DNA of 64,000 nt from a virus, in IMG/VR virus record IMGVR_UViG_3300036761_001135, positions 1 to 64,000 of that record; one strand, given 5' to 3'. The notes beneath the pieces are model-generated. The model saw only the letters and a program-made list of their open reading frames with translations. It had not been told where the DNA came from and searched no databases. Each line of letters begins with the position of its first letter. Position 1 is the stretch's first letter. A program made the position numbers and the translations under genes. Shown in pieces: positions 48,838-58,369 of this stretch.

Positions 48838-48879
48838 CCTCTTTCAAAGGGTCGGGGTCGCCGCTTAGTAGGGAGGCGA

Positions 48880-49965
48880 TCCAGTCCAGGCAAGGCAGGA
48901 GCGGGAGGCGAGGATAGGAGAGGCCGGGGAAGGCGTGGCAGGAATGGCACGGGCAGTACGGGATAGGTGCGGCCAGGATTGGCAGGGCAGGAACGGCTTG
49001 GCGCGGATCGGACTGGTTGTTTATGGATCGGAGAGGCAGGAATGGCGGTGCCTGGAGAGCCGAGGAGGGGTATGGAGGGTTGAGGAACGGCAGGAGTGGA
49101 AAGTTAAGGCGTGTGGAGGTCGGGCCGGGACTGGCGAGGCAGGAGAGGTTGGCATGGATTGTCACGGCGCGGATCGGCAGGAAAGGTCTGGCTTGGATAG
49201 TCGGGTCACGGATTGGCAGGCGAGGCGGGGACCGGCGGGGAGAGGCGCAGAGAGGCAGGATTGGATCGGTGCGGAACGGTGTGTCGTGGCATGGCAGGCA
49301 TGGCAGTGTCGGGAATGGGTTGGTAGGGAAAGGCGCGGCTGGGCAGGAATGGCCAGGACGCGACGGGAGGGGCGAGTGGTGGTGCGGAATGGCAAGGCAG
49401 GCGAGTCTGGGAGCGGTGTGGTGAGTTGTGGAATGGAGTGGACTGGAAGGCAGGATAGGTGAGGCGCGTTCTGGCCTGGGTAGGTCGGGATTGGCGAGGC
49501 AGGATAGGTTGGGTCCGAACGGGCGCGTCGTGGGGTGGGATGGCAAGGCAGGTATGGCAAGGCTAGGACTGGCGAGTTGAGGAGTGGAAGGGGGAGGCAG
49601 GCGGGGATAGGTCTGGAGGGGATAGGCGAGGTTTGGAAGGGATTGGCAGGAGAGGATAGGCAAGGCCAGGCATGTTGTGGGATGGCAGGGACTGGCAGGA
49701 TTGGCACGGAATGGTCGGGTGGCGTCTGGTGTGGTAAGGCGAGGATTGGCAGGCGTGTTGCGGCAAGGCTCGGACGGATGGACTGGGCAGGGCAGGTTGG
49801 GAGTGGGATGGATTGGATTGTTGAGGCCGGGCTGGAGAGGCCAGGTGGGACACGGTGGGAATGGGCTGGGCCAGGATTGGCTGGAATGGTGGGGTATGGA
49901 GGGCCAGGGTGGCGCTGGGCAAGGAAGCTTCTGGCGTGTCAGGAGTGGAAAGGTCTGTAGGGGTG
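48880..49965. repeat. 1.1-kb G-rich low-complexity tract with ~5-nt GG periodicity
   Basis: A non-coding region built from degenerate words such as GGCAGGAATGG and GGCAGGATTGG, with GG every 5 nt or so for over a kilobase. The period is not a multiple of three, and the frames that stay open through it give Gly/Arg/Trp-rich nonsense. The + strand is strongly purine-rich. It could form two-tier G-quadruplexes or serve as a replication, packaging or transcription-pausing region just before the terminase genes. Nothing like it occurs elsewhere in the window. Confidence 0.8.
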
Positions 49966-50042
49966 CCGCTCGTCATGGAGCGGAAGCGTCTGTAGGAGTT
50001 CGAAACGCAGCAGGGCTGGCATCTCTAGGGGTGCCGGCCCTG
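49966..50042 (+). terminator. Paired strong hairpins closing the G-rich tract
   Basis: CCGCTC/GAGCGG (loop GTCATG, 49966-49983) is followed by an 11-bp stem from 50011-50021 to 50032-50042 with one G-T pair and loop TCTCTAGGGG. A TCTGTAGG(G/A)G word recurs near 49954 and 49988, and as TCTCTAGGGG at 50022. No T-run follows, so a classical intrinsic terminator is uncertain; it may be an RNA-processing or boundary element. Confidence 0.5.
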
Positions 50043-50080
50043 TCCTGCCTTGCGTAAAGAACTTGTGGTATACAGCATCC

Positions 50081-50680: not shown

Positions 50681-51427
50681 ATGAGCAAAGCGGTCCCATA
50701 CTCAAAACTCAAGAAGATGCGCTGCCATAGAGAAGTCTATGAAAGACTGTGCGCTGGTTATCCCTTCCCAGAGGTGGCTAGGTTTATTCAAGAGGACGAA
50801 GGCGAGTACCTAGACGTAGGTCGCCGATCCCTCATTGAAATATTGCGCGACTATTCCGAACGCGAAATCGTCGGTGTAGATCTGATCGCACCACGCTTGC
50901 CGCATTTGATCGTGAAGGCACAAAAGGAATTCAGTGACCGATTGGAGGATCTCCGTCGCCTGGAGCGAGCCTACGAGGCGTTGTTGTACAGATTCGATAT
51001 GTCCCATGGTGCGGAGCGGCGCAACGGCAGGGTGAACGCGGACGTAGACCGGCAGGCCAAGGTCTTGATGGACTATGTGTCCAAGATGCACGACATCAAG
51101 ATGGATTTGGGGCTCACGGGGTCGCGTGATCTTGGCACGTTGACGGTGAGTGCAGAGCGTCTGGCAGAGATTCGGGACAAGTACGGCGAGGGTGCGGCGC
51201 GTGCCTTTGGAGATCCGGTCTCACGAGCCAAAGTTCTTGGTCTGTTGAAGCGTGTGATGCGCATTTCGGAAGACTCTGGCATCGACGATGCGGACGTTGA
51301 AGAGGCGAACCTGGGTTCGCGTGACGATCCCGAACTTTATGAGGACGCCATAGAGGCCGAATATTGTGAGGCGACTACCCCAAAATCGACTAGCGAGAGT
51401 GCCGAACAAGATTCGGAAGACAGATGA
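50681..51427 (+). CDS. Candidate small terminase subunit
   Basis: A 248-residue protein; ATG 50681 after GAGGGG is preferred (ATG 50609 lacks a site). The N-terminal half YERLCAGYPFPEVARFIQEDEGEYLDVGRRSLIEILRDY suits a helix-turn-helix DNA-recognition domain, the middle is coiled coil, and the end is acidic. Position directly before the large terminase, with ATGA coupling, supports a small terminase role; sequence similarity is not recognised. Confidence 0.55.
   Translation: MSKAVPYSKLKKMRCHREVYERLCAGYPFPEVARFIQEDEGEYLDVGRRSLIEILRDYSEREIVGVDLIAPRLPHLIVKAQKEFSDRLEDLRRLERAYEALLYRFDMSHGAERRNGRVNADVDRQAKVLMDYVSKMHDIKMDLGLTGSRDLGTLTVSAERLAEIRDKYGEGAARAFGDPVSRAKVLGLLKRVMRISEDSGIDDADVEEANLGSRDDPELYEDAIEAEYCEATTPKSTSESAEQDSEDR
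51306..51319 (+). repeat. 14-bp palindromic repeat, copy 10
   Basis: CGAACCTGGGTTCG inside the candidate small-terminase gene. Confidence 0.85.
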
Positions 51428-54400
51428 TCGTAACAGGCAACAATGGTCGTCGCAGAAGCATTAGGACGACCAGCGAGGACGTGTTGTCGTTCGAGGATGG
51501 GTACGCCCTATGCACACCAGAGGAGCGCGCCTTAGTCCATGCTTTGTTGAGCGATGACCACCCAAACGATGCGGCGAAGCTCAGTTTGGAGTTGAACGAT
51601 TCGCTCTATCAGCGGCCATTGGTGCCGATCCAGCAGTTCATCGAAGATCCTTATTACCTTGGGGACTCCATGATGACTCTGTATCCGGCGTTAAAGCAGG
51701 ATATTATTGACCTTTTTGCGGCTCCATACAGGGAAGTCGTGCTCACGGGCTCCATCGGCGCGGGCAAGAATTTTTTGGCATCTGCGGCGATTTGCCGAAT
51801 TTTGTACGAGCTGTCCTGCCTGAAGAACCCACAGATGACGTTTGGGATGTCTCCTGGTACAGAGATGGTGATCATGCTGATCTCGAAGAACCTCGTCTTA
51901 GCCCGCGAGGTGATGAAGACCAGCATCGACGACAAGGTGAAGCTCAGCCCGTACTTTATGCAGCACTTCACCCCCAAGTTCTCGACCGACTACACGCTGT
52001 TTCCCAACAACATCCGCATGACCATCGGAAGCTATGGGGCAGAGCGTGCCTTGGGAGCGAATATTTTTAGCTGCATGCTGGACGAATGTCTCAGTGGTTC
52101 AGCATGGTTGCAAATAAAAATAAATATTGATTTTTGCGCTGGTTTGTGCGATACAATCGGCATGTCCGTTGGTGATTTGTGGGCAATGGGGCCTTCGGAT
52201 CGTGACGGGTTGCTGGTTGAAGCGCTGGACCATGTGACGGGTCGGCAGACGTGGACGCCGTTTCGGATGCGGCTATCCACGGTGCAACCGTTGGTACGGA
52301 TTGAAGCCGAGGCGAACCCAGGTTCGTGTCGAGCCATCGAGCCTTCCCTTGAACATCCTGTATTGGTGCGGCGCGGCGACTGGCTAGTTTATGTCCCGGC
52401 GATTGAGATCAGCGTCGGGGATGAAGTGGCTTGGAGGCGCGACGATGGCGAAAAAGGGCGAGACACTGAGCGAGGAGATGAAGGCACGTCTATCGGAGGC
52501 GGCGAGCCAGCGGACTGGCGAACTCAATCCATTCTGGGGGAAGACGCACAGCGAGGAGATTCGAGCTTTGTTTGCGGAGAACGCGCGGAAGCAGTGGACG
52601 GGGACGCACCAAAGCGAGGAGACAAAGGCGAAGAGATCGGCATCTTTGAAGGGGCGCGTCATGTCTGCGGAGACGCGGGCAAAGATGGCAGCTTCGGCAA
52701 AGGCACGTTGTACGCCGGAGTGGCGTGCGAAGAAGTCGGCAGAGATGCAGGAACGTGTTGCAGCAGGGCTGGGACCGACGCCACCAATTCAACCTGCCGG
52801 GCCAGATCATCCGTTGAGTGGGAAGCCGAAGACGGAACAGCATCGACAGGCGTTGAGCGCGGCGAGGCTAGGGTTGCCGGGCCATGCGCACACCGAGGAG
52901 TCGCGGGACAAGATTTCGGCGGGGAACGTGCAGGCGATCAAAGATCGGGTGCGGTCATACCGCTACCATGTGTCATCGCCGGATGGCGGGGTGGTTCCAT
53001 GCCGGACGGAGAACGAAGGTCGTTTGGCGCTCCACCTATGTGCGGAGAAGAATGTAACAGCGGTCGTTGGCGAAGATCATATGACGTGGGTGCCATACAG
53101 CATAAACGGACAAAATCGGTTGACAGTGGGAGACTTTCTTGTGACGAGGGACGACGGGGTGCAGGTTTTGGTGGAAGGAAAAGACCCAACGTCCATGTAC
53201 AACCAGCGTACAATGGCGCGCATAGAGGCGCTGTGGAAGTGGAGTCAGGAGAACAGGGTTCTGTTTATTCTTGCGATCAATGGGAAGCCATTCCCAAGCG
53301 TATGGACAGGCCCATTTGTGGACAAATTTCTCATGGACCATCTGTTTTATCAACGACAACGTGTAATCAGGAGGAGGGTCAACTCTGTTGTAATTTCTCC
53401 TTGCGGAACGATTGTGCCGTGCAAAACGGAGATGGAACGGGCGCTGGCGAGATGTTTGTGTATGGAACCTGGAGTTGCCAGTGTGGTTGGAACGGATCGG
53501 ACAGGGTCGATTCCGTACACCACGAGCGGACGAGTGCATCATGTGGAGCCAGGTTTCATGGTGACGCGGTCGGACGGGGTCATTGTCGTTGTGGAGGTGG
53601 AGACGGCATCTGGTCTGTATCGAGAGAAAGACAGGGCGCGGTTGGAGGCATTGTGGGCGTGGTGCCAGGAGCACAAGACGCCGTTTGTGTTGGCTATCAA
53701 CGAAAAGGGGTTCCCGAGCGTATGGACGGGGCCGTTTGTGACGGAAGAGTTCATGGAGAGCGTGCGGCAACGTCGCGTGCGCTTTCGCACCATGCAGACG
53801 GTCGATACCTTGGAGGTTGCCGTGCCGAGTGTTTGCGAGTTGACGACCTGCCTACAGAGTACCGACTCGTTCGCGTGATCTCGACGCGCCTGTTGCCGGC
53901 CGAGCAGACCTACAGCATCGAGACGGACTGCAAGACGTTTGTGGCTGACGGATGCGTGGTCCACAACACCAACTTCCCGCCCAAGAGAAGTGCTCAGCAG
54001 ATTAACCAGACGTTTGGCAAGAAGCTGACGGCGGCCAACTTTGACATCGTGGAGAAGGTGTACCGATCCATGCTGCGGCGCATCAAGTCGCGCTTCCAGA
54101 TCGCTGGCGGCGACTTTCCGGGCATGGTCATCATGGTGTCTTCGGCGGCGACCTTGGACAGCTTCACAGAGCGCAAGTTGAGGGACGCGCGTCGAGACCC
54201 AACTGTGTTCGTTCGAGATCACACGGCGTGGACATCGAAGCCCAGGGATCATTTTTGTGGTAAATGGTTCTACGTGCTGTGTTCAAAATCCAGCCTTCGG
54301 TCTCGTATTCTCGAAGAGGGCGAGTACAACGAGATCACGCAGGAGTTTTTGCAGGAAAACAATGCGTGGATGATCGAAGTGCCGATTGAGTATAGGGAGG

Positions 54401-56649
54401 ACTTCGAGTCCAACCTTGAGGACTCCTTGCGAGACATCGCGGGCGTGTCCACGCAGGCCATCTCGGCTTTCTTCCAGAGGGTGGATGCCATCGACGCCTG
54501 CATAGTGGATCGTCCGCATCCATTCTCCAGCGAGGTCTGGGTGGCTGGGTCGCCGGCGACGTTCACTTGGGATACGCTATGTCGGAAGATCGAGCGGAGA
54601 CTGCCGGGTGGATTTGTAGAAGCCGCATGGGCACCGAAGGAATCTCCAAGCCATCCTCGTTGGATTCATATTGATACTTCCATCAGTGGGGACTGCGTGA
54701 CGGCGGATACGCTGGTGGCAACCCCGGCTGGGAACGTTCGCATTGATTCCATCGTTGCGGGAACTCCTGTGTATAGTCTGGGTGCAGACGGAAAGTTCAC
54801 GGTTGCCACTGCGACGAATCCTGGTCTGAAACGGCGGGAGTCGCCGTTGGTACGTGTCGTGACAGATGGGGGATCGATTCGGTGTACGCCCGATCACAAG
54901 TTCATGTTGCGTGATGGAACATATTGCGAGGCCAGGCTTTTGCGGGATGGAGATTCGTTGATGCCACTGTACAGGCGTTGTTCAGCTAAGCATCCTGGAC
55001 GTCGCGGGGGTGGAGGGTACGAGGAAATTTATCAGCCTGCGTCAGAGCGGTATGCGGCAGCTCATCGTGCGGTGGCGGAATATAAGATAGGTAGATTGCT
55101 AACTGAAGACGAGTGCGTTCACCATGTGGGAACCGAGAATCCAGACAATAAGTTAGACAACCGGCCAGAGAATCTGGAGGTGATGGCGAAGCGGGACCAC
55201 TGGCGTTTACACCAGACGCTGATTGTCGCCTACAACAAAAGTGAGCGGCATCGTGCCTGGGCTCGGGAGTGGGGGCTATGGTCTTGCACGCATCCGACGC
55301 CTGCCATGGTGGAGGCGCGTCGTCGGAATGGGAGTGCGCGGTGCCGATTGATCAATGCTGGGGAATCGAACCCATCCAAGCTGGAGAAAAATAGGAAGCG
55401 ATTTGGGGACATGGTGCGGGAGCGGCATGCCAATGGTTTGTGTACGGAGAACTACAAGAATTTTAAAAGACCTGAAGTACGTGAGAAAACTCGTGCGGCG
55501 GTGTCGATTTCCAGTCGAAATCGCCAATGGAGCGATGAGAGCCGACGCAAGTTATCCATTCGCCGACAGGAATACTTGGCCAGGGTTGCCTCGGGGGAAA
55601 TCGAACAGAAGCCGGTTAGCGCGGAGACACGGGCTAAGATGTCTGCGTCGCGTCGTGGCAAGACATGGACAGATCAGGCTAGAACGAATCATATGGCTTC
55701 CTTGAAGCAACAGGAGTGGACAGAAGAGAGCCGGGCTAAGATAGCAGACGCCAATAGAAACCGCGTGTGGAGTGAGGAGAGCCGTCAGAAATGTGCAGAG
55801 GCACAACGGAGACGGCATGAGAAGAAGCAGTCACAGCGGGAGATTAAGAATCACAAGGTTTTGCGGGTGGAGGATGCGGGCCATGAGGATGTGTATTGCC
55901 TGACGGTGGACGGTGAGCACAACTTCGTGGTGGTGTTTGGCGAGGATCGATTTTCGTCTGGGGTTGTGATCCACAACAGCACAGGATTCGTGATGGGGCG
56001 GATAGAAAGATGGGTAGAGGTAGTGCGCCGTGACGGGGACGGCCATGCCTATACGGACACCGCGCCTTATTACGTCATCGAGGTGCTTCTGTGCATTCGG
56101 CCTCCGACCGGCGATCAAATCTACATGCCGGATTTGAGAAGGCTGGTTTACGAATTGCAGGCGCATGGTTTTCCTATCCATGGGTTTTCGTCAGATTCAT
56201 TCCAAGCCGTGGAAATGCACCAACAGATTCGGCGGCACGGAATCCATACCGAGCTGATTTCGATGGACCGCATCATAGATCCCTATGAGGAGTTGAAGTC
56301 GGCAATTTATGAAAAAAGGATTGAGTATTACGGGTATACTCCATTGCTTCAAGAACTAAGATCGCTTGAGTATGATCGTGTAAAAGGAAAAATAGACCAT
56401 CCTCGTCATGCCAGTAAGGACGTTGCCGATGCATTGGCTGGCGTGGTCTGGGGCCTTCGCCAACAGGCCGCTCGCTTGCCGTGGGCTGCGGATGCTGATA
56501 CACCAATAAGAGCGGTCGGTCATGAGCATGGCTGGGTGAGCGACATGATCCCAGCGGAGGACGTGGATCTCGAAGATGTGAGGTTAACTCGCAGGACGGG
56601 TGCCGCCGCATTAGATATCATGCTCCCATTTTTCATAGGAGATGACTGA
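51424..56649 (+). CDS. terL: Large terminase subunit with two inteins
   Basis: A 1741-residue precursor. The exteins join to a 686-residue T4 gp17-like protein: Walker A LTGSIGAGKN (109-116), Walker B FSCMLDE (215-221), coupling motif VMVSSA, then the RuvC-like nuclease with HIDTSISGD-STG, FSSDSFQ and a final KDVADALAGVVWGL. Intein A follows the Walker B Glu and intein B sits in the first nuclease Asp motif, so both active sites need splicing. Cuts and pumps DNA into the prohead through the portal encoded next. Confidence 0.92.
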   Translation: MIVTGNNGRRRSIRTTSEDVLSFEDGYALCTPEERALVHALLSDDHPNDAAKLSLELNDSLYQRPLVPIQQFIEDPYYLGDSMMTLYPALKQDIIDLFAAPYREVVLTGSIGAGKNFLASAAICRILYELSCLKNPQMTFGMSPGTEMVIMLISKNLVLAREVMKTSIDDKVKLSPYFMQHFTPKFSTDYTLFPNNIRMTIGSYGAERALGANIFSCMLDECLSGSAWLQIKINIDFCAGLCDTIGMSVGDLWAMGPSDRDGLLVEALDHVTGRQTWTPFRMRLSTVQPLVRIEAEANPGSCRAIEPSLEHPVLVRRGDWLVYVPAIEISVGDEVAWRRDDGEKGRDTERGDEGTSIGGGEPADWRTQSILGEDAQRGDSSFVCGERAEAVDGDAPKRGDKGEEIGIFEGARHVCGDAGKDGSFGKGTLYAGVACEEVGRDAGTCCSRAGTDATNSTCRARSSVEWEAEDGTASTGVERGEARVAGPCAHRGVAGQDFGGERAGDQRSGAVIPLPCVIAGWRGGSMPDGERRSFGAPPMCGEECNSGRWRRSYDVGAIQHKRTKSVDSGRLSCDEGRRGAGFGGRKRPNVHVQPAYNGAHRGAVEVESGEQGSVYSCDQWEAIPKRMDRPICGQISHGPSVLSTTTCNQEEGQLCCNFSLRNDCAVQNGDGTGAGEMFVYGTWSCQCGWNGSDRVDSVHHERTSASCGARFHGDAVGRGHCRCGGGDGIWSVSRERQGAVGGIVGVVPGAQDAVCVGYQRKGVPERMDGAVCDGRVHGERAATSRALSHHADGRYLGGCRAECLRVDDLPTEYRLVRVISTRLLPAEQTYSIETDCKTFVADGCVVHNTNFPPKRSAQQINQTFGKKLTAANFDIVEKVYRSMLRRIKSRFQIAGGDFPGMVIMVSSAATLDSFTERKLRDARRDPTVFVRDHTAWTSKPRDHFCGKWFYVLCSKSSLRSRILEEGEYNEITQEFLQENNAWMIEVPIEYREDFESNLEDSLRDIAGVSTQAISAFFQRVDAIDACIVDRPHPFSSEVWVAGSPATFTWDTLCRKIERRLPGGFVEAAWAPKESPSHPRWIHIDTSISGDCVTADTLVATPAGNVRIDSIVAGTPVYSLGADGKFTVATATNPGLKRRESPLVRVVTDGGSIRCTPDHKFMLRDGTYCEARLLRDGDSLMPLYRRCSAKHPGRRGGGGYEEIYQPASERYAAAHRAVAEYKIGRLLTEDECVHHVGTENPDNKLDNRPENLEVMAKRDHWRLHQTLIVAYNKSERHRAWAREWGLWSCTHPTPAMVEARRRNGSARCRLINAGESNPSKLEKNRKRFGDMVRERHANGLCTENYKNFKRPEVREKTRAAVSISSRNRQWSDESRRKLSIRRQEYLARVASGEIEQKPVSAETRAKMSASRRGKTWTDQARTNHMASLKQQEWTEESRAKIADANRNRVWSEESRQKCAEAQRRRHEKKQSQREIKNHKVLRVEDAGHEDVYCLTVDGEHNFVVVFGEDRFSSGVVIHNSTGFVMGRIERWVEVVRRDGDGHAYTDTAPYYVIEVLLCIRPPTGDQIYMPDLRRLVYELQAHGFPIHGFSSDSFQAVEMHQQIRRHGIHTELISMDRIIDPYEELKSAIYEKRIEYYGYTPLLQELRSLEYDRVKGKIDHPRHASKDVADALAGVVWGLRQQAARLPWAADADTPIRAVGHEHGWVSDMIPAEDVDLEDVRLTRRTGAAALDIMLPFFIGDD
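52313..52326 (+). repeat. 14-bp palindromic repeat, copy 11
   Basis: CGAACCCAGGTTCG inside the N-terminal splicing domain of the first terminase intein. Confidence 0.85.
52445..53878 (+). CDS. Homing-endonuclease-like gene nested out of frame in the terminase intein
   Basis: A 477-residue protein; GGAGG at 52433-52437 lies 7 nt before ATG 52445. The N-terminus has NUMOD3-like DNA-binding repeats (NPFWGKTHSEEIRALFAEN, HQSEETKAKRSASLKG, HTEESRDKISAGN). Two copies of a domain of about 120 residues follow, each with SVWTGPF at its end and an acidic DG(V)xVxVE(G/V) core (VLVEGKD, VVVEVE), resembling a Vsr/TnsA-like nuclease fold. It ends just before intein block F. Inference: a homing endonuclease that invaded the intein. 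Confidence 0.75.
   Translation: MAKKGETLSEEMKARLSEAASQRTGELNPFWGKTHSEEIRALFAENARKQWTGTHQSEETKAKRSASLKGRVMSAETRAKMAASAKARCTPEWRAKKSAEMQERVAAGLGPTPPIQPAGPDHPLSGKPKTEQHRQALSAARLGLPGHAHTEESRDKISAGNVQAIKDRVRSYRYHVSSPDGGVVPCRTENEGRLALHLCAEKNVTAVVGEDHMTWVPYSINGQNRLTVGDFLVTRDDGVQVLVEGKDPTSMYNQRTMARIEALWKWSQENRVLFILAINGKPFPSVWTGPFVDKFLMDHLFYQRQRVIRRRVNSVVISPCGTIVPCKTEMERALARCLCMEPGVASVVGTDRTGSIPYTTSGRVHHVEPGFMVTRSDGVIVVVEVETASGLYREKDRARLEALWAWCQEHKTPFVLAINEKGFPSVWTGPFVTEEFMESVRQRRVRFRTMQTVDTLEVAVPSVCELTTCLQSTDSFA
54694..55977 (+). mobile_element. Intein 3 (terminase nuclease site), HNH type
   Basis: A 428-residue intein from Cys (CVTADTLVATPAGN) to GVVIHN with Ser as +1. Block B is CTPDHKFMLRDG. The endonuclease is HNH type: ECVHHVGTENPDN, then DNRPENLEVMAKRDHWRLH. 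NUMOD3-like repeats (SAETRAKMSASRRGKTW, TEESRAKIADANRNR, SEESRQKCAEAQ) follow. Here the endonuclease is in frame, unlike in the other terminase intein. Confidence 0.9.
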
Positions 56650-58369
56650 AATGGGCTGGACGGACACTGTCAAAAAGTTCTTCAGCCGTGACACGACTGG
56701 GAAGGTGTCCGAGCTGGCGAGGGGATCGTCTGGCGAGAACATCATGCCGCAGATGGGGCCAGGCGCTCCAAACTCTGGCATGGGCGGGGCGTACCAGCAG
56801 CTTTCCACCATGCTCTCTGTCGATGCCGATCTCATGCTTCGGTATTCCGACTATGAAAACATGGACGATTACCCGGAAATCAGCGCGGCGTTGGACATCT
56901 ATGCCGACGACGCGACGATCACGGATGCCGTGCATGGGCGGGTGATTTGGGCCACATCGAAAGACAAGATCGTCCGGGACATCATTAACGACCTGCTCCA
57001 TCGGCGCATTCGAATCGAAGAGGACATTTGGGTTGCGATTCGGACGATGGGAAAATACGGAAACATTTTCTGTGAAGTGATCGTGAACGAGAAGGGGGTG
57101 TTGGGCCTAAATTGGCTGCCACCTCCTACCATGCGTCGCATTATCGACGGTCGCGGAAACTTGGTTGGGTTTGTCCAGGATCCTTCGGGGATGTTTGCGT
57201 TCAACATTGCGACGCGTGATGACCTAGAAAAATTGCGTGTGAAACGCGATGGATCTAGCGCGGTCTTTTTCTATCCTTGGGAGGTTGTGCATTGGAGGCT
57301 TCGAGGGAAGCAGATGCGCGCCCTGTATGGCCACTCACTATTGGACTCGGCGAGGTGGATTTGGAAGCGCTTGATCATGCTGGAGGACTCCAGTCTGGTC
57401 TGCAAGCTCACCAAGTCGCCGTCGAGGTTTGCCTTCTACGTTGACACCGGGGAGATGCCGCCGCGAGAGGCGCGGGCCATGGTCGATGAGGTACGGCGTC
57501 GCTATAAGAAGAAGCGGATCGTCGATCCGTCCACAGGAAAACTAGACTTTAGAATAAATCCCATAGCACAGGACGAAGACATCTTTATCCCGACGCGGGC
57601 TGGAAAAGAGGCTTCTCGCGTTGAGGTGCTTTCCGGGCCTGACTACGACGACACCAATGTGCTTGGGTATTTTTTGAAGAAGTTGTACGCGGCGATCCGT
57701 ATTCCACCGCAGTATCTCGGCGGGACAGAGACGACAAATCGTGCTGCTCTTACTCAGGAAGACGTGCAATTCGCGCGCTTGGAATTGCGCATACAGCACG
57801 AGTTTGTGAGCGGTTTATCGCAGGTGGTGCGCGTGCATCTAGCGGCGCTCAACATCGACCCTGATTCTGTGCAGTGGGATCTGCGTATGCCGGCACCGAG
57901 CAGCATTTTCGAGATGCAGCAGATCGAGGTGTGGAACGCGCGAGCTGCATTGGCTGCGGCATTGCGAGACTTCTTCACGATGCCGTGGATTGTTGCGAAC
58001 ATCTTCCACATGTCCGAGGAAGACGCGCTGTTTGCGACCGAGGCCAAGAAGAATGAGGACGAGGCGACTGCAATGGCTCAGGCGCAGGTACAGGCTGAAA
58101 TCATGCAGAAGTTCCCAGAGCTAGGCCCGATGGGTGCCATGGGTGCCATGGGAGTGCCGCCCGAGGGAGAGCAGGGGCAGGCTGGGGCGTATGAGGACGT
58201 GCGGAAGGAGATCCGGCGTGTGTTGGCCGAGAACAGCGGAAGCAACAACGAGGTTTTGCGGCTTTTGAATCGTATTGAGCCTGCTTTGAATCGGGTTGAG
58301 CGGAAAGTGCTCAGCTCAAATCGAGCGGAGAATGCGCGGGGCCAAAACCGGGTCATGATTGCGAGGTGA
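56642..58369 (+). CDS. Portal protein, T4 gp20-like
   Basis: A 575-residue protein; ATG 56651 may be the true start because AGGAG is only 2 nt from 56642. DYPEISAALDIYADDATITDA, FCEVIVNEKGVLGLNWLPP, VVHWRLRGKQMRALYGHS and IRIPPQYLGGTE are portal motifs of the T4 group. Forms the dodecameric DNA-entry ring docking the terminase. It ends with a Gln/Ala-rich, then coiled tail. Confidence 0.88.
   Translation: MTEMGWTDTVKKFFSRDTTGKVSELARGSSGENIMPQMGPGAPNSGMGGAYQQLSTMLSVDADLMLRYSDYENMDDYPEISAALDIYADDATITDAVHGRVIWATSKDKIVRDIINDLLHRRIRIEEDIWVAIRTMGKYGNIFCEVIVNEKGVLGLNWLPPPTMRRIIDGRGNLVGFVQDPSGMFAFNIATRDDLEKLRVKRDGSSAVFFYPWEVVHWRLRGKQMRALYGHSLLDSARWIWKRLIMLEDSSLVCKLTKSPSRFAFYVDTGEMPPREARAMVDEVRRRYKKKRIVDPSTGKLDFRINPIAQDEDIFIPTRAGKEASRVEVLSGPDYDDTNVLGYFLKKLYAAIRIPPQYLGGTETTNRAALTQEDVQFARLELRIQHEFVSGLSQVVRVHLAALNIDPDSVQWDLRMPAPSSIFEMQQIEVWNARAALAAALRDFFTMPWIVANIFHMSEEDALFATEAKKNEDEATAMAQAQVQAEIMQKFPELGPMGAMGAMGVPPEGEQGQAGAYEDVRKEIRRVLAENSGSNNEVLRLLNRIEPALNRVERKVLSSNRAENARGQNRVMIAR

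Follow-up and report, generated by a model that had tools for sequence, protein, structure and literature searches.

We describe an insertion in the large terminase (TerL) gene of a phage which, as we infer, is very likely a mobile intein with an independently translated nuclease gene nested inside it, out of frame. The stretch of DNA that we analysed, referred to below as the window, is 64,000 nucleotides long and comes from a virus record of 168,688 bp. Both frames are open in four phage lineages, and the codons of the nuclease gene avoid those combinations that would create stops in the TerL frame. Both the nuclease and the two splicing halves that flank it are under purifying selection, and the insertion is accompanied by precisely empty sites and by a nuclease-less form in related phages.

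The features of the locus are collected in Table 1. Alignment with relatives that lack intein 1 places it in the Walker B region at MLDE/TNF (the slash marks the insertion point), where it accounts for exactly 627 extra codons, with the junctions reading DE/C...HN/TNF. No second copy of TerL was found in the 168,688-bp record, and no Rfam intron was detected at gathering threshold over 51400-56700. With a single TerL copy and no detectable RNA intron, removal at the protein level is therefore the natural reading.

Table 1. Features of the terminase locus, in window positions
Feature	Position	Strand	Remarks
Large terminase (TerL) precursor	51424..56649	+	single frame, 1741 codons/1741 aa, two inteins
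Intein 1 of TerL (putative)	52087..53967	+	627 aa; C1...H626-N627, +1 Thr; in frame with TerL
Intein 1, N-terminal splicing half	52087..52444	+	SLEHPVLV...VGDEV, block B
GGAGG, Shine-Dalgarno-like site	52433..52437	+	7 nt upstream of ATG 52445, within the intein's WRRDDG codons
Homing-endonuclease-like gene in intein 1	52445..53878	+	477 codons + stop, +1 relative to TerL
NUMOD3 repeat region of nuclease (DNA-binding modules)	52445..52945	+	PF07460, 3 stretches; approximate borders
TnsA-like PD-(D/E)XK domain 1	52970..53350	+	E...GDF...EGK intact, motif read from alignment; approximate borders
TnsA-like domain 2	53370..53755	+	extra copy; motif PGF...EVE instead of GDF...EGK
Intein 1, C-terminal splicing half and linker	53753..53967	+	conserved in TerL frame; nuclease frame enters until TGA 53876-53878
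Intein 2 of TerL	54694..55977	+	ordinary kind, in-frame HNH + NUMOD3; contrast case

Two observations concern the surroundings of this locus. The packaging genes of these phages are unusually rich in inteins: at L001 5834-15954 the terminase has three (Walker A, Walker B and near the C-terminus) and the portal protein two, and the portal gene of L005 (9594-12404) has one. In the window (48870-50050) and in L001 (3450-4400), a G-rich, quasi-repetitive stretch of about 1.1 kb, with units like GGCAGGAATGGC and a GC skew >0.5, lies upstream of the genes preceding TerL, though the two sequences differ; no clear gene and only weak tandem repeats were found in either stretch.

The nuclease frame is open from ATG 52391 (495 aa) or from ATG 52445 (477 aa) to its TGA. 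Homology with the nuclease of L001, the nearest relative of the window nuclease, begins at ATG 52445, and the downstream start is therefore the correct one. Its Shine-Dalgarno-like GGAGG is also present in L001 and L005, with weaker versions in L038 (GAGG) and L048 (GGAG), although a GGAGG close to an ATG is common enough here (55/1272 ATGs) to weaken the signal. A scan for promoters and terminators within intein 1 returned nothing beyond chance, and RNA folding near the nuclease start codon turned up nothing out of the ordinary for the window, L001 and L005.

In Pfam the nuclease product matches NUMOD3 (E 6.4e-15) and, in two stretches, a TnsA-N-like domain (E 9.9e-7). The catalytic E, D and E-x-K are intact in domain 1 of the window and in L001 and L038 (PF07460 and PF08722 matches). 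Judged from sequence alone, a product combining catalytic residues with DNA-binding modules is homing endonuclease-like, and its cleavage of the empty allele is inferred on the same basis. In domain 2 the D and K of the PD-(D/E)XK motif are gone, and this copy is probably non-catalytic, again an inference from its residues only. This domain is exclusive to the window copy, the nucleases of L001, L038 and (by length) L048 having a single TnsA-like domain, and whichever duplication or deletion separates the one- and two-domain forms must have left both frames open. AlphaFold models were uninterpretable, both for the nuclease (pLDDT 40) and for the mini-intein of L005 described below (pLDDT 32). 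The sequence-only reading had claimed a 477-codon ORF starting at ATG 52445 with its own GGAGG, in a frame different from that of the terminase, and encoding NUMOD3-like repeats and two nuclease-like domains; all of this held, with the refinement that the second domain lacks D and K.

The same intein site, the same out-of-frame nuclease and the same +1 offset recur in three more lineages (L001, L038 and L048), and the TerL frame is open across the nuclease in 4/4. TerL DNA identity to the window across these three is only 57-81%, and around the intein site of L038 and L048 only 57-60%. Of the 101 loci that gave NUMOD3-nuclease matches, only those in the TerL intein have a second frame open throughout, the best of the others reaching 63%. 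No TerL relative was present in the genome contigs searched, where the nuclease found short NUMOD3 matches only; the phage search left the L038 intein protein unmatched and gave only partial NUMOD3-type matches for the nuclease, and the plasmid search gave no match.

The openness of the TerL frame is reflected in the codon choice of the nuclease gene. Over 436 nuclease codons the TerL frame contains 0 stops, compared to a mean of 15.5 after synonymous shuffling, and a stop-free outcome was obtained in 0/20,000 shuffles. In control coding segments of the window the equivalent frame had at least 4 stops in 16/16 cases, with the longest open runs not exceeding 232 codons. The TerL frame acquires a stop only where a T-ending nuclease codon is followed by one that begins with AA, AG or GA. 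Counting only codons that have a T-ending synonym, T was used at 0/289 of these risky sites in the four nuclease genes pooled, versus 241/680 safe sites. Each gene shows the same avoidance individually: 0/78 versus 75/259 in the window (Fisher p 1.3e-10), 0/57 versus 38/154 in L001 (p 1.5e-6), 0/77 versus 73/133 in L038 (p 8.5e-20) and 0/77 versus 55/134 in L048 (p 7.5e-14). The four genes are related and the tests are thus not fully independent; pS between them is 0.6-0.9, however, so that their synonymous sites are strongly diverged and there has been ample chance for T to appear. Neighbouring genes on the same contigs have T at 53/105 and 64/126 (L048) and 48/110 (L038) of the risky sites, and the control genes of the window at 220/1399 risky versus 1115/4252 other sites.

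Selection differs between the frames. The nuclease frame has a pN/pS of 0.29-0.53 in 6/6 lineage pairs, indicating purifying selection, while the intein-frame shadow over the nuclease gives 1.40-1.88 (6/6 pairs), similar to or looser than the unused third frame at 1.01-1.26 (6/6 pairs). Simple pN/pS counting ignores the overlap of frames, and the third frame serves as a built-in control. Outside the shadow the TerL frame is constrained, with purifying selection on the N-terminal splicing half (w 0.14 against L001) and a w of 0.20 in the C-terminal half; over the latter, the final ~40 codons of the nuclease ORF are unconstrained in the nuclease frame (w 1.2) and conserved in the intein frame. 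We conclude that, over the nuclease, the intein-frame peptide is a linker on which the absence of stop codons is the sole visible constraint. Of the two frames it is that of the nuclease which is conserved, the intein-frame peptide being a by-product, and 'overprinted' should not be taken to mean that a new gene was born over an old one.

These results bear on the remaining claims of the sequence-only reading. That the TerL frame is free of stops over the nuclease, and that other shadow frames here run to about 230 codons at most, both held. Its proposal that selection keeps both frames open held as well, with the qualification that selection on the TerL frame is seen only as stop avoidance and not as peptide conservation, and its ORF is refined in that the last ~40 codons belong, by conservation, to the intein frame. 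It had also named two findings that would refute it: a sequencing indel was checked and excluded, the offset being the same in the L001, L038 and L048 contigs, and relatives with the ORF in frame with the intein were looked for and none was found.

The case for an intein is built on homologues, motifs and empty sites, splicing itself being inferred. On its own, intein 1 of the window has no intein match in Pfam or NCBIfam. Its L038 homologue matches PF14890 (Intein_splicing) over positions 6-155 of 155 with an E of 4.6e-5, below the Pfam curated cut-off score, and the L001 homologue does so weakly (E 0.0034). A four-sequence family profile matches PDB inteins with both splicing halves (Pho RadA, E 0.0012; Pab PolC, 0.0037; NrdJ-1, 0.025; Spl DnaX, 0.16). 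C1, HN and Thr+1 are present in the window, L001, L005, L038 and L048; the Cys at position 1, the SxEHPxL of block B and HN/T are invariant in the family. The usual His of block F is missing, TDCKTF or TDYNTF standing in place of xHxF; not every intein has this His. When the profile of intein 1 was compared with those of the other inteins of these phages, no signal emerged.

The distribution of the element is consistent with mobility. Precise empty DE/TNF sites are found in close relatives (4 haplotypes; L006-L010 and L012-L014) and also in L035-L037, L039 and L040, and the exteins of the occupied L038 are 97% identical to those of the empty L036, L037 and L040. Occupied forms are scattered on the TerL tree, with L001 beside the empty L010, and the window and L005 beside the empty L013. 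L005, whose TerL exteins are identical in protein to those of the window, has a 190-aa mini-intein with the same halves and without the nuclease, of which a 65-codon stub is left in the nuclease frame. Because three other lineages have the nuclease, L005 more likely represents a loss than an ancestral empty mini-intein, but its junction does not prove loss. A homing cycle is expected to pass through gain of the whole element, loss of the nuclease and empty sites; the forms of the intein 1 family fit these stages, homing itself being inferred.

In the mechanism that we propose, the TerL frame would yield splicing halves flanking ~440 residues of meaningless peptide, and these halves would remove the entire block and ligate MLDE to TNF, which would make the Walker B region whole again. 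In the +1 frame, initiation at the internal ATG 52445 via the GGAGG would produce a free NUMOD3/TnsA-like nuclease, which would cut intein-less terL near the insertion site, and repair would then copy the intein in. Selection on the nuclease would act on its protein, and selection on the TerL frame of the same DNA would act against stops only, because a single stop would kill the sole terminase. We consider it likely that the dual-frame intein constitutes a distinct and long-lived class, in which overlapping same-strand genes are kept up by stop avoidance across host-phage divergence.

One alternative remains possible and is compatible with our reading of the family, namely that the window copy is a decaying element with an open intein frame and a nuclease that is inactive here. 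In its favour, domain 2 has lost its D and K, the sister L005 is without the nuclease, and block A is altered: the first ~80 nt of the window intein (52087-52165) are AT-rich and unlike those of L005 and L001, while the rest of the intein N half and the TerL exteins are 98-100% identical between the window and the near-identical L005. Block A looks like a local replacement beginning at the insertion site; no second copy of the AT-rich segment (52080-52170) is present in the record. Because block A is divergent, the window copy may splice poorly. Against decay, domain 1 is intact, the ORF is stop-free and the family is under purifying selection.

The remaining explanations compete with the dual-frame intein more directly. 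The first, which we judge very unlikely, is an unspliced insertion in TerL that carries an out-of-frame nuclease and is kept as a tolerated loop. A precedent has been described in actinophage methylases (Arsenault et al. 2025, PMC11855218), where the ShiLan domain and the Pacc40 gp60 insertion encode HNH endonucleases out of frame, leave the host frame open and lack a splicing domain, and the window copy alone indeed has no intein profile match. However, conserved halves bearing C1, block B, HN and the +1 Thr lie on either side of the nuclease, the L038 homologue matches PF14890 over nearly its full length, and both halves take part in the matches of the family profile to PDB inteins. Moreover, the halves are conserved in the TerL frame, L005 keeps them without the nuclease, and a retained loop of 475-627 aa in the Walker B region of a single-copy essential ATPase is hard to accept. 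Equally improbable in our view is +1 ribosomal frameshifting from TerL in place of internal initiation, giving an unspliced TerL-intein-nuclease fusion. The identical +1 offset in all four lineages would agree with it, but a Shine-Dalgarno-like site and an ATG stand at the start of the nuclease homology, and the nuclease frame of L038 is closed by a stop directly before the ATG region, limiting any shift site to a few codons.

Two artefactual or accidental origins are all but ruled out. An in-frame nuclease could have been displaced by sequencing or assembly indels that compensate each other near 52440 and 53870; no evidence supporting this was found, the same offset occurs in four independent contigs with TerL DNA down to 57% identity, and the codon choice avoids stops. 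The TerL frame could also be open by chance, as a result of G+C-rich, E/K-rich nuclease codons, and control genes do use T somewhat less before AA, AG or GA. At the control rate of 0.157 per site, however, 0/78 has a probability of ~2e-6 for the window alone, and L038, at only 38% G+C, still has 0/77 while genes on its contig use T at 44-64% of such sites. A group I intron (no Rfam match at gathering threshold in 51400-56700) and a canonical intein with an in-frame endonuclease (offset +1 in four lineages) were rejected.

How inteins acquire their endonucleases is a long-standing question, commonly answered by a model in which the two modules must be fused in frame. In this locus the nuclease gene has a start and a stop of its own, lies out of frame in a putative intein and has persisted across deep divergence; if the reading is true, an intein can combine with an endonuclease into a mobile element that is stable even though the two are not fused in one frame. 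As an example of overlapping genes from nature the locus is also unusually clear-cut, one frame being constrained by protein function and the other only by having to stay readable, and it is a warning for annotation pipelines, which would call either a giant TerL or the nuclease, not both. No intein with an out-of-frame nuclease was described in the literature that we searched, preprints not being covered, with the reservation that actinophage inteins of 'non-canonical architecture' are the subject of a preprint cited in PMC11855218 (Gosselin et al., bioRxiv 2025.01.02.630785).

The dual-frame intein resembles several known systems without coinciding with any of them. Canonical large inteins with in-frame LAGLIDADG or HNH nucleases, such as intein 2, likewise have splicing halves around a homing nuclease, are mobile and occupy a conserved catalytic motif; their nuclease is part of the same-frame polypeptide, whereas that of intein 1 is a separate +1-frame gene of which the intein polypeptide contains only the shadow. 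Split inteins whose fracture houses a free-standing endonuclease also have a nuclease that is encoded between the two halves and translated separately; unlike these, intein 1 is unsplit, with one continuous frame through the nuclease gene. Group I introns carrying NUMOD3 nucleases (I-TevI/I-BmoI type) are also self-removing elements with an independently translated nuclease and NUMOD3 modules, but the removal of intein 1 would occur at the protein level, and no stop may interrupt its host frame across the nuclease gene. The catalytic domain, with its conserved E, D and E-x-K, is that of TnsA-like PD-(D/E)XK nucleases (PF08722; phrog_15427), here fused to NUMOD3 repeats and duplicated in the window copy, and we claim no transposon partner. 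The ShiLan and Pacc40 insertions share with intein 1 a hidden out-of-frame nuclease gene, a host frame left open and a disjunct distribution. Unlike these HNH nucleases of 160-195 aa, which have no splicing domain, start at a GTG without a visible RBS and are kept in a non-essential methylase, the nuclease of TerL intein 1 is NUMOD3/TnsA-like, ~330-480 aa long, preceded by a Shine-Dalgarno-like site and housed in the putative intein of an essential gene.
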